Source of the DNA: a virus
Virus record (IMG/VR): IMGVR_UViG_3300023181_000020
Coordinates: 1-39,390 of that record
Strand: one strand, 5' to 3'
DNA length: 39,390 nucleotides
In this document: one piece after another, positions 9,875 through 39,390 of the stretch
Layout of the letters: the number at the start of each line of letters is the position of its first letter
How positions within the stretch are numbered: the first letter of the stretch is position 1
Made by a program: the position numbers and the translations under genes
Notes under the pieces: generated by a model
Told to the model about the DNA's origin: nothing
Database searches by the model: none
What the model saw: the letters and a program-made list of their open reading frames with translations, nothing else

Positions 9875-10090
9875 ATGAATAACGATATAAGAATAGGAAA
9901 TAATATCAAACAAGCTCGCTGGAACAGGGGAATTTCGCAGCGCTTGTTAGGTGTAAAACTTAATGATGTTACCCCTCAGCAAATAAGCAAGTTTGAGCGT
10001 GGGGAAAACAGAGTTTCGGCATCTCAGTTATTTCAGATTGCCAAGATACTAAAGACCGATGTTATTAACCTTTATTATGGATGCAAATAA
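9875..10090 (+). CDS. XRE-family helix-turn-helix regulator
   Basis: This 71-aa protein is a stand-alone Cro/CI-type HTH: IGNNIKQARWNRGISQRLLGVKL forms helices 1-2, VTPQQISKFERGENRVSASQLFQIAKIL carries the recognition helix and the typical 'QQISKFERGENR' motif. There is no C-terminal oligomerisation or peptidase domain, so it resembles Cro or a small SinR-like repressor more than CI. AAGGAG lies just upstream of ATG 9875. Its promoter contains a palindrome that is the likely operator. It probably controls the accessory block that follows. Without an integrase, it is not evidence for lysogeny. Confidence 0.9.
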   Translation: MNNDIRIGNNIKQARWNRGISQRLLGVKLNDVTPQQISKFERGENRVSASQLFQIAKILKTDVINLYYGCK

Positions 10091-10764: not shown

Positions 10765-10773
10765 CAACAAATT

Positions 10774-10844
10774 CCCCTCAGTCTTAGGATTGCGGGGCTT
10801 ACGAGGGATGCGGCATAACTAGGCCGAGCTAGCCTCCCTCACCA
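10774..10844 (+). ncRNA. Two consecutive hairpins upstream of a tRNA-like element
   Basis: Hairpin 1: CCCC 10774-10777 with GGGG 10794-10797, one mismatch, then CAGTC 10779-10783 with GATTG 10788-10792 around TTAG. Hairpin 2: GAGGGA 10803-10808 pairs with TCCCTC 10835-10840, GG 10812-10813 with CC 10833-10834, and CTAG 10819-10822 with CTAG 10829-10832. Hairpin 2 is followed by ACCA (10841-10844), exactly as the cloverleaf downstream is. There is no U-run after hairpin 1, so it is not an ordinary terminator. The segment is locally G+C-richer than its surroundings. Confidence 0.5.
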
Positions 10845-10847
10845 TTT

Positions 10848-10911
10848 GGCGGTATGCCCTTGGGCTGCTGGACACCTAGCCAGCAAAGGTTAATAGCCTT
10901 TACCGCCACCA
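10848..10911 (+). ncRNA. tRNA-like cloverleaf with encoded ACCA end (64 nt)
   Basis: A 7-bp acceptor-like stem, GGCGGTA 10848-10854 with TACCGCC 10901-10907, is followed by A and CCA (10908-10911). Inside are three arms in tRNA order: a D-like arm (GCC 10856-10858 with GGC 10863-10865), an anticodon-like arm (TGCTGG 10866-10871 with CCAGCA 10880-10885, loop of eight, ACACCTAG) and a T-like arm (AAGG 10886-10889 with CCTT 10897-10900, loop of seven, TTAATAG). It is about 12 nt shorter than a normal tRNA, the anticodon loop has eight bases, and the T-loop lacks the TTCRA consensus. It is probably not a decoding tRNA, but could be a mimic, a processing signal or a decayed tRNA. Confidence 0.5.
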
Positions 10912-10923
10912 GAGGAGAAGGAT

Positions 10924-11049
10924 ATGAAAGAAGAAATTATAAGCTATATGGGTAGGTTAACGGAAAAGTATAAGCATCAGGATTTAGGTGCGCAAGAGTT
11001 ATATATGTTAGCTGAAATGATAAGGGTTTGGGAAAAATATGGAGAATAA
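10924..11049 (+). CDS. Hypothetical protein, 41 aa
   Basis: AGAGGAGAAGG directly upstream of ATG 10924 is a strong ribosome-binding site, placed immediately after the ACCA end of the cloverleaf. The protein (MKEEIISYMGRLTEKYKHQD...) is a charged helical microprotein. Its stop overlaps the ribosome-binding region of the next gene. No family is recognised. Confidence 0.6.
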   Translation: MKEEIISYMGRLTEKYKHQDLGAQELYMLAEMIRVWEKYGE

Positions 11050-11050
11050 C

Positions 11051-11464
11051 ATGAAAAAACTAACAACAGACGAATTTCTAAATGATTGGCCAAAGGAGAA
11101 TAGTGTGGATGCAATTAAACAGATAAGAGAGGCTTTGGAGTTTTATAATAGAATTGGCAAAAATTGTCATGAAGCTGCACTTGTAAACGATAGGGGTGAG
11201 ATAGCGAGTAAAGCCCTCACAGCCCTATCACAGCTAGAAGTTATAGCGGAAACTCACTATAACTCTATAAACTCTGTATCACCCGCTGCATTAGAAGCTC
11301 AACAGCCTGTTAGTGAGCTTGTGAAAGATATTGATTTAGCGTGGGAATATATGAATAGCCTAGAGGGTAAGTACTTCTCAGATGGCGATATAATGGATTT
11401 GTTAATGAAATGCAAAGCCGCGATATCAACAACAGTTATAGAATCTATTAATCGGGAGAAATGA
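11051..11464 (+). CDS. Hypothetical helical protein, 137 aa
   Basis: GGAGAA at 11041-11046 favours ATG 11051 over the in-frame ATG at 11039. The protein begins MKKLTTDEFLNDWPKENS and contains SKALTALSQLEVIAETHY and other amphipathic helices. It resembles the loose group of phage proteins with 'A..AL..L' helices that sit in accessory regions. No catalytic motif is visible and no family is recognised. Confidence 0.65.
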   Translation: MKKLTTDEFLNDWPKENSVDAIKQIREALEFYNRIGKNCHEAALVNDRGEIASKALTALSQLEVIAETHYNSINSVSPAALEAQQPVSELVKDIDLAWEYMNSLEGKYFSDGDIMDLLMKCKAAISTTVIESINREK

Positions 11465-11551: not shown

Positions 11552-11908
11552 ATGCTAACACGCAATGAGATAATAGAGTTAATTAATAAGGCAATAACCT
11601 CTTCGCCATTGATATATTCAACCACTAGGCGCTCTGGTTCTAATGGCATTAAAAACCCTGATGAAGTTACAAATAAAGTTCTTGAGTCGCTAGAGAAAGC
11701 AGGGGTGTTGATGCTGGTTGAGGAAGTTGAAGATGGGGATATTATTTCTTATCAAGATAATTATAACGACCTTGCCGCAGGAGTGGTTAATTCAGTAGAT
11801 ACCAAATATAAAAATGCAAGTTGCAATGGATATGTGAGAAGGAATTTTAAAATTATCCAAAGAGCCAACACACCAGTTTATCAATGCAAAGGAGCTTCCA
11901 ATGAATAA
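11552..11908 (+). CDS. Hypothetical protein, 118 aa
   Basis: The start ATG 11552 lies six to ten bases after a G-run, which is better than the in-frame ATG at 11498. The protein has an N-terminal helix (LTRNEIIELINKAI), a central acidic part (LMLVEEVEDGDIISYQDN) and a C-terminal basic strand region (YVRRNFKIIQR). No family is recognised. It overlaps the next gene by eight bases. Confidence 0.65.
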   Translation: MLTRNEIIELINKAITSSPLIYSTTRRSGSNGIKNPDEVTNKVLESLEKAGVLMLVEEVEDGDIISYQDNYNDLAAGVVNSVDTKYKNASCNGYVRRNFKIIQRANTPVYQCKGASNE

Positions 11909-12554
11909 ACAAGAGCTTTTGAGTTGCCCTTTTTGTGGCTATTTAGCAAGTATTGAACAACGCAATACATCCTTTTATGAGGGTGGTTGCGGCAACCCAG
12001 ATATTGAGTGTTGTGGACAAGATGCGATATACGAACAAAATTATAAGACGGCTGTTGCTAGGTGGAATAATAGACCAACTAAACACTTTGAGTTCGGCGC
12101 TGGCAAGATTACTATTGCAACAGGTACTTATTATGACAAGAAAGCAATCTTTATAGAGCCTAGCAATAAAAATGGTGCTGTAGGTTCTTATGTTCCAAAG
12201 ACGGAATATTGCGAAAATACCTTAGAGCCAGATTCAGTAGTATTATTCTTTGATAATAATTGCACTGGGATAGATGTTCTTAGCGATGCAATTCAAGCTC
12301 TCTCCGATAGTAAAGATGGGTGGAGGGAGAAACCTACGGAGGCAATGTGCGATAATGCAAGAGGCTTTATACTCGGCCTAGAAATGCGCCGAAACTGGAT
12401 AACCATGCAGAATCATCTTGAGGCAGGTGGATATAATACCTTACCTTATATTCAAGAGAAAGCTAAACAAGACCCATACGGCCATATAACTAAGTGGGAT
12501 ATTGCAGACTGCATCTACCAACTTATGAATCAACCGCCAAAGGAAAGGGGATAA
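11901..12554 (+). CDS. Lar-like zinc-ribbon N-terminus fused to a helical domain, 217 aa
   Basis: CAAAGGAGCTTCCA precedes ATG 11901. Residues about 8-58 are a Lar-type zinc ribbon: SCPFCGYLAS, then CGNPDIECCG as the second Cys group and a closing VARWNNRP. Residues about 60-135 form a beta-rich region (FGAGKITIATGTYYDKKAIFIEP). The last 80 residues are helical with tryptophans (KPTEAMCDNARGFILGLEMR). Lar-type proteins are usually 60-90 aa, so this is an extended form. Rac Lar modulates type I restriction, but function here is inference. A second Lar-like gene crosses the window ends. Confidence 0.75.
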   Translation: MNKQELLSCPFCGYLASIEQRNTSFYEGGCGNPDIECCGQDAIYEQNYKTAVARWNNRPTKHFEFGAGKITIATGTYYDKKAIFIEPSNKNGAVGSYVPKTEYCENTLEPDSVVLFFDNNCTGIDVLSDAIQALSDSKDGWREKPTEAMCDNARGFILGLEMRRNWITMQNHLEAGGYNTLPYIQEKAKQDPYGHITKWDIADCIYQLMNQPPKERG

Positions 12555-15915: not shown

Positions 15916-16869
15916 TTAGATTAGTACTTCCTGCGCCCTACGATAAGTAAATGTAGGTGTGCCAGTATCATTAGCAGTTACAAGTCGTACAAACTTATTA
16001 GCGGGTATAACGCCTGATAAAGTGCCTGTGCTTATCTGATTCAAAGCCAGACCTATAGTCAATGCGCCCGTATTAGAAGACGAGAACCTGCATACTTCGG
16101 TAACATTTGTAGTAAAGCCAGTATCATCTGCATAGCGTAGATAAACAGTACCAGCCTGACCACCAGTAAGCGAAAGAGCGGTTGTAACATCCACTGAATA
16201 ACTAACTATTGCATCGCGCGTAGTGCTGGGCTGGAAGCTAGTATTTAATGAACGAGTGGGATTGGCAAAAGAGCGCGCCACAGGAGCAGAAAGGCCAGCA
16301 AGCTTAGTTTTCTCGGCAGAAGTGTAGTCTTCTGTAGAAAGCCCCTTGCCAGTAACCTTGTCAACTTTGCCTGCAGTTTCAGTTTGAATCTTAGTAATCA
16401 TTGCAGCTTCGCCCGCAGAATCAGCTAAGATTTTAGCAACAACTTGACTCATACCAGTGCAAGCCATTATCTCTTTACCCGCAGCCTCAACTGTAGTACC
16501 AGCAAAGCCAGTTGCATCACGAGTTACTAGGTCATCCTCAGAAATAGCATTTAACTCACTAGTTGTACGCGCAGTTGCAAGGGCATAATTCTGAGTTACA
16601 TTTACTGCAATCCTTTCTTTAGCCGTGCTGTTATTGGTCATTATATCGTTAAAGGTCGGTTTAGGCCAAGTTATAGAGTCAACCTCAGTCCAGTTAATAT
16701 AAGTATCATAAGATGTTTCACTGTTATCTGAAATATCCCCAGTAATAGTATAGGCATAAGCCTGCCCTCTACCATTAATAAAGGCATGAAACGCAAGCAA
16801 TGTTACCATATCAAGCGTATCATTTATTTCTGCGACTTCATCGTATGTAGCGTAATAGTTTATAGTCAT
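15916..16869 (-). CDS. Tail-fibre / distal structural protein, 317 aa
   Basis: GGGGAGAAGG precedes ATG 16869; the longer frame from 16884 uses that stretch as coding sequence and is rejected. The N-terminal half has no known fold. KVDKVTGKGLSTEDYTSAEK at residues about 165-185 is the widespread tail-fibre repeat that precedes distal binding domains. The C-terminal 110 residues (SLNTSFQPSTTRDAIVSYSV, NKFVRLVTANDTGTPTFTYR) are a beta-rich domain found at the C-terminus of many phage fibres. It is the last structural gene before lysis. TTGACA on the minus strand just upstream could be part of a weak promoter. Confidence 0.75.
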   Translation of the reverse strand: MTINYYATYDEVAEINDTLDMVTLLAFHAFINGRGQAYAYTITGDISDNSETSYDTYINWTEVDSITWPKPTFNDIMTNNSTAKERIAVNVTQNYALATARTTSELNAISEDDLVTRDATGFAGTTVEAAGKEIMACTGMSQVVAKILADSAGEAAMITKIQTETAGKVDKVTGKGLSTEDYTSAEKTKLAGLSAPVARSFANPTRSLNTSFQPSTTRDAIVSYSVDVTTALSLTGGQAGTVYLRYADDTGFTTNVTEVCRFSSSNTGALTIGLALNQISTGTLSGVIPANKFVRLVTANDTGTPTFTYRRAQEVLI

Positions 16870-16911
16870 AGTCCTTCTCCCCATTAATAAAGCCTGACAA
16901 AATTGTCAAAC

Positions 16912-39114: not shown

Positions 39115-39390
39115 ATGAAAACAGATATTAAACATACGCCTTTGCTTCCGTGTCCGTTTTGTGGGAGCGCCGCTACTTTTGGAAACTTTATTATAAATAT
39201 GGTTACTTGTATAGATGACGAATGTCCTGCATCTTTAGTTCTAGCTACACCTGAAAAATGGAACACCAGAGCAAGCTTCAACGAAAGAGATGAGCTGGTT
39301 TCATTCCTGAAACTATTTGAATCAGGACAGCCATTTCAACCCGTAGAATGGCGCAAAAAGGCATTAGAACTTCTCACCAAAATATCAATG
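39115..39390 (+). CDS. Lar-like zinc-ribbon protein, 5' part (gene crosses the contig join)
   Basis: The gene starts at ATG 39115 after AAAGGACA and continues through base 39390 into base 128 of the window, giving 94 aa that end at TAG 134-136. Near the N-terminus it has CPFCG, then a second Cys pair (TCIDDEC) and a WNTR motif. The order CPFCG...C..C...WN.R is the hallmark of the Lar/restriction-alleviation-like zinc-ribbon family. The family founder, Rac prophage Lar, reduces host type I restriction, but most family members are untested. The C-terminal half (residues about 50-94) is helical and charged with no known domain. It is the last gene of the early run that begins at 36287. A second family member lies at 11901. 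Family membership is fairly secure; an anti-restriction role is inference. Confidence 0.8.
   Translation, partial: MKTDIKHTPLLPCPFCGSAATFGNFIINMVTCIDDECPASLVLATPEKWNTRASFNERDELVSFLKLFESGQPFQPVEWRKKALELLTKISM
39264..39390. repeat. Terminal direct repeat, copy 2 (circular contig overlap)
   Basis: This is the second exact copy of bases 1-127. Removing one copy gives a circle of about 39,263 bp and restores a 94-codon gene across the join. Confidence 0.95.

Follow-up and report, generated by a model that had tools for sequence, protein, structure and literature searches.

Tandem stem-ACCA folds in a short non-coding gap of a podovirus-like virus, one of them a plausible tRNA mimic

Introduction

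The shape of a tRNA is not confined to RNAs that decode. In the animal nuclear RNAs mascRNA and menRNA (MALAT1, MEN-beta) the CCA end is added and not encoded, and bacterial RNase P, for its part, prefers a U at position -1 of its substrates. Both mascRNA and menRNA are small, non-decoding, tRNA-like RNAs that are excised from a longer transcript by tRNA-processing enzymes; tmRNA, which has a tRNA-like fold with CCA, is a substrate of RNase P, and further non-tRNA substrates of tRNA shape exist (PMC4919922). The determinants recognized by RNase P include the helix formed by the acceptor and T stems, the base pairs between RCCA and a GGU in RNase P RNA and a contact with N-1, and hairpin substrates carrying these determinants suffice for the bacterial enzyme (PMC11143913). 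A precedent for an RNase P cut in a phage RNA that is not a tRNA is the C4 antisense RNA of phages P1 and P7 (Rfam RF01695), whose precursor is cut on the 5' side of the first stem, where that stem starts with GG (PMC5320573). Truncated mitochondrial tRNAs, finally, have been shown to function (PMC7609411). Here we describe an element in the genome of a podovirus-like virus that resembles each of these systems in part, and we weigh the readings that it allows.

Genomic setting and architecture

The window analysed is the whole virus record, 39,390 bases long, with a P22-type portal, coat and scaffold genes and with replication-type genes for a primase-polymerase-like protein, a RecE-like exonuclease, an SSB and a helicase. 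The element is located near the replication genes, between two small ORFs of the same strand, in an early small-gene operon whose genes touch or overlap. An earlier note had placed it between genes and had drawn two hairpins, the second followed by ACCA, and a cloverleaf with a further ACCA directly in front of a ribosome-binding site. The sequence and the predicted fold reproduce these coordinates and folds, the ribosome-binding site does start at 10912 (ATG at 10924), and the intergenic location holds, as no reading frame of at least 34 aa crosses the gap 10765-10923 (longest, 33 aa); the conserved frame through the region that the note had named as a refutation is thus absent. The features are as follows.

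9875-10090: helix-turn-helix protein of Cro/C1 type, immediately upstream of the stretch of small genes in which the element lies
10765..10923, plus strand: non-coding gap of 159 nt that holds the whole element (ORF lists)
10774..10797, plus strand: hairpin 1, CCCC.CAGTC-TTAG-GATTG.GGGG, with no ACCA after it
10803..10840, plus strand: hairpin 2, 6-bp end stem GAGGGA/TCCCTC and an irregular inner stem (predicted fold)
10841..10844, plus strand: ACCA flush after hairpin 2 (sequence)
10845..10847, plus strand: TTT spacer, which gives the U at -1 of the cloverleaf (sequence)
10848..10907, plus strand: four-way cloverleaf, all arms paired; MFE -26.8 kcal/mol, pair probabilities 0.55-1.0
10848-10854/10901-10907, plus strand: acceptor stem GGCGGTA/TACCGCC, 7 bp
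10856-10865, plus strand: D-like arm, 3 bp, 4-nt loop CTTG
10866-10885, plus strand: anticodon-like arm, 6 bp (stem 10866-10871/10880-10885), 8-nt loop ACACCTAG
10886-10900, plus strand: T-like arm, 6 bp with 3 nt or 4 bp with 7 nt (loop TTAATAG)
10908..10911, plus strand: discriminator-like A and CCA, flush after the acceptor (sequence)
10912..10921, plus strand: ribosome-binding site GAGGAGAAGG, abutting the last ACCA
10924..11049, plus strand: 41-aa ORF, overlapping the next ORF (11039-11464); searches found no family or relative for it
11901-12554: protein with a Lar-like restriction-alleviation domain, downstream of the element

The structured part of the gap is richer in GC than the genome (58% versus 41%). 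The four arms of the cloverleaf comprise 22 pairs, one of them G-U, and folding at 15, 25, 37 and 45 C predicts the cloverleaf each time. Its folding energy, taken over 64 nt, has a z of -3.3 (2 of 200 shuffles as good), that of hairpin 1 a z of -3.0 (1 of 200 equally stable) and that of all 138 nt a z of -2.8 (0 of 200 as good). Hairpin 2, an inverted repeat of 10803-10811/10832-10840 with C as its base -1, is not exceptional when taken alone (z = -1.5). An alternative fold is available in which CCTC at 10837-10840, in hairpin 2, pairs over 4 bp with the GAGG of the ribosome-binding site and so masks part of the SD; the two folds lie 0.4 kcal/mol apart, the tRNA-like one being the more stable, with ensemble probabilities of 0.69 for the tRNA-like and 0.08 for the SD-masking form.

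Departure from chance

When the gap was dinucleotide-shuffled 460,616 times, a 7-bp, four-way cloverleaf flush with ACCA arose in 127 of the shuffles, and two ACCA sites, both directly after a stem of 6 bp or more, arose in 24. These figures are not clean p-values because the motif, including the match to ACCA, was picked post hoc. Five ACCA sites flush with such a stem are present in the whole window, both strands considered; two of them are the neighbours described here, the second element beginning 3 nt past the first ACCA. When all 256 four-letter tails were tested in the gap, ACCA alone was found to follow two independent stems. Whole-window shuffles yielded 0.06 ACCA-flush cloverleaves per strand. 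The same cloverleaf scan applied to other viral loci (3.06 Mb of strand) picked up two real tRNAs besides about nine matches that look coincidental, so that a lone cloverleaf with ACCA is unremarkable per genome. The remarkable part is the tandem of stem-ACCA ends inside one short non-coding gap: the tandem folds are confirmed as non-random, and their joint pattern is very unlikely to be the product of chance, though the statistics are post hoc.

Comparison with tRNAs and other structured RNAs

The element is not an ordinary tRNA, and its 64 nt are too few for a working one. ARAGORN in its default mode reports 0 tRNAs at the element, and the Rfam tRNA model RF00005 gives no match there at E 10, while the controls were positive in 14 of 14 genomes. 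In its -mt mode, ARAGORN draws a truncated, mitochondrial-type tRNA of 64 bases with exactly the ends given in the earlier note, and the order of the arms, the 7-bp acceptor stem and the discriminator A followed by CCA are likewise common to the element, to RF00005 and to truncated mitochondrial tRNAs. The differences from RF00005 agree with the element's being no standard tRNA: the loop ACACCTAG has eight bases in place of seven and no U33 in place, the loops TTAATAG and CTTG depart from the T-loop consensus TTCRANY and from the D-loop GG, and there are no variable region and almost no linkers between the arms. The 6-bp anticodon stem, the small D loop and the single U that separates the acceptor from the D arm are reminiscent of tRNA-Pyl, membership of which was rejected for want of an anticodon in register.

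The other systems are matched in outline and differ in substance. Like the tRNA-like domain of tmRNA, the element has a tRNA-like fold with CCA, but the Rfam tmRNA model has no match at the element, and a tmRNA frame drawn by ARAGORN was rejected, appearing only at a relaxed threshold, in a short fragment taken as circular, and with an unknown tag. With C4 RNA it shares its being a phage-encoded structured RNA in what would be a regulatory leader; C4, however, consists of three stem-loops whose loops pair with the target, and model RF01695 does not match the element at E 10. The best antisense pairing found for the loops of the element spans only 7-8 nt with G-U pairs and lies downstream; a further one is the 4-bp CCTC/GAGG pairing. 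The likeness to mascRNA and menRNA is one of small size, tRNA-like shape and absence of decoding, and no homology links the element to these RNAs.

Searches for relatives

At present the element is a single sequence. No homologue was found by blastn in phages or plasmids, by searches with the neighbouring proteins or by way of the coat protein into GTDB genomes. A first exact-pattern scan of IMG/VR returned nothing, and a second returned ten matches, about the number estimated for chance; one was a genuine tRNA-Met and the other nine look coincidental. The covariance model R1, whose input was one sequence in duplicate and which therefore finds near copies only, was run on 30 sources, where it yielded weak matches, mostly loci selected by pattern and the element's own minus strand, and found no homologue in 100 records of terminase, helicase and coat relatives, many of them fragments. 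Three weak R1 matches below E 0.03 came from two related records: two lay inside a stretch densely annotated with genes, and the third (L116), when read, looked like coding sequence. The structured gaps that were read in relatives contained no tRNA-like element, one of them having terminator-like hairpins.

The small-gene operon is different even in that relative of the replication module which is closest among those with DNA past the helicase (L002/L023), whose helicase is 67% identical, whose partial record has no match to the element and whose matches to our record end at about 9.8 kb; a relative with a 70%-identical helicase (L035) ends too soon past that gene to be compared. The absence of homologues is weak evidence, since many of the records are fragments, the model derives from one sequence and very close records may lie outside the collections searched. 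On a 132-kb viral contig, a tRNA-Met of 72 nt with a very short D arm (L013:7645-7716, minus strand; CCCAAGGCGGG) has the acceptor GGCGGTA/TACCGCC in common with the element, probably by coincidence.

A tRNA mimic in an operon leader and its alternatives

The earlier note had proposed a tRNA mimic recognized by RNase P/Z or the CCA enzyme, a processing mark or a new phage small RNA. Of this, the architecture stands beyond chance in the shuffles and in the test of 256 tails, and the features that would face RNase P can be read from the cloverleaf, which makes a tRNA mimic plausible; the job of the element is unproven because no relative was found. Our best reading, which we hold tentatively, is that the leader of a small-gene operon carries a tRNA-like RNA that does not decode, is processed by the RNase P of the host and, by analogy, is comparable in function to the C4 RNA of P1/P7 or to mascRNA. 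The sequence and predicted fold of the cloverleaf offer a helix of 7 bp plus 4-6 bp, ACCA and a U at 10847, and the 3-nt spacer between the two elements is like that of tandem tRNA genes. Host RNase P would recognize the acceptor/T-like helix and RCCA in the phage transcript and would cut near 10847/10848, with a weaker cut near 10802/10803, at hairpin 2. The cuts would release tRNA-like pieces, about 64 nt long provided that trimming takes the 3' side back to CCA; alternatively, a cut would define where the downstream message begins. More speculatively, the near-equal energy of the CCTC/GAGG fold suggests that forming or cutting the tRNA-like fold would unmask the ribosome-binding site and free translation of the 41-aa ORF, against which stand a pairing of merely 4 bp and a folding model that favours the other form. 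Processing by RNase P has to contend with the ordinary energy of hairpin 2 and its C, rather than U, at -1, and with a lack of homologues and hence of covariation support. The T-like arm has no T-loop consensus, so contact with the specificity domain of RNase P should weaken. No promoter match was found near the element.

Should RNase P indeed process it, the element would stand as a compact counterpart of mascRNA in phages, its CCA encoded in the genome, and the shape of a tRNA would here serve processing or control instead of decoding. It could then show how a phage punctuates small-gene operons without enzymes of its own or, alternatively, how it baits the tRNA nucleases of its host. We consider it doubtful that the element founds a new class of phage-encoded tRNA mimics, non-decoding and in tandem, whose CCA ends are encoded in the genome, which the RNase P of the host produces and which act as regulators or divert host enzymes that target tRNAs.

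An ordinary structured 5' leader, in which stable hairpins protect the message or tune translation and the ACCA ends are fortuitous or selected as nothing more than unpaired spacer, is possible, if on the whole unlikely. The abutment of the cloverleaf on the ribosome-binding site, the shortness of a gap that lies among the touching or overlapping genes of an early small-gene operon, a folding energy significant in itself and the competing fold over part of the SD would all suit it, whereas it explains neither the two stem-flush ACCA ends nor the four-way form in place of a simple hairpin.

Rather improbable is the remnant of a tRNA cluster, its first gene reduced to an acceptor hairpin and its second to 64 nt after the loss of selection. 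The 3-nt tandem spacing, the encoded CCA, the ARAGORN -mt match and the occurrence of odd short-D-arm tRNAs in other records, such as the 72-nt tRNA-Met of L013, point in that direction, but decay would not have kept all four arms fully paired (22 pairs, one G-U), there are no remnants of a T-loop, an anticodon or a D-loop, the Rfam tRNA model finds nothing at E 10, and ARAGORN found no tRNAs in the nearest relatives examined.

An element acting as DNA, such as a signal for replication or strand switching in which the inverted repeats are extruded into single-strand hairpins or into a cruciform and the RNA is irrelevant, we regard as improbable to a still greater degree. Inverted repeats fold on either strand, one G-U alone breaking the symmetry, R1 scores the minus strand too (19 bits), and replication genes are nearby; the ACCA ends, by contrast, are 3' on the plus strand only, the strand on which the flanking genes are transcribed, and a ribosome-binding site follows directly. 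A real mini-tRNA, charged and decoding, is highly improbable: the acceptor, discriminator A and CCA of the cloverleaf, the features reminiscent of tRNA-Pyl and the existence of functional truncated mitochondrial tRNAs (PMC7609411) speak for it, and against it stand the eight-base loop, the misplaced or absent U33, the want of a variable region, of more than a few linkers and of a T-loop consensus, and its being missed by default ARAGORN and Rfam tRNA.

Other features of the record

CTAG is depleted throughout the genome (82 seen, 143 expected) and occurs three times in a 60-base span of the element, at 10819, 10829 and 10876; a kissing interaction between loop CTAGs, which are self-complementary, was considered and no support for it was found. 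On the minus strand near the endolysin, 15916-16884 encodes a 322-aa protein; most of its matches in PHROG are families without a known function, and one, a weak match, is to a tail protein. The ends of the record are identical over 127 bases (1-127 = 39264-39390), as expected for a complete genome that is circularly assembled or terminally repeated.
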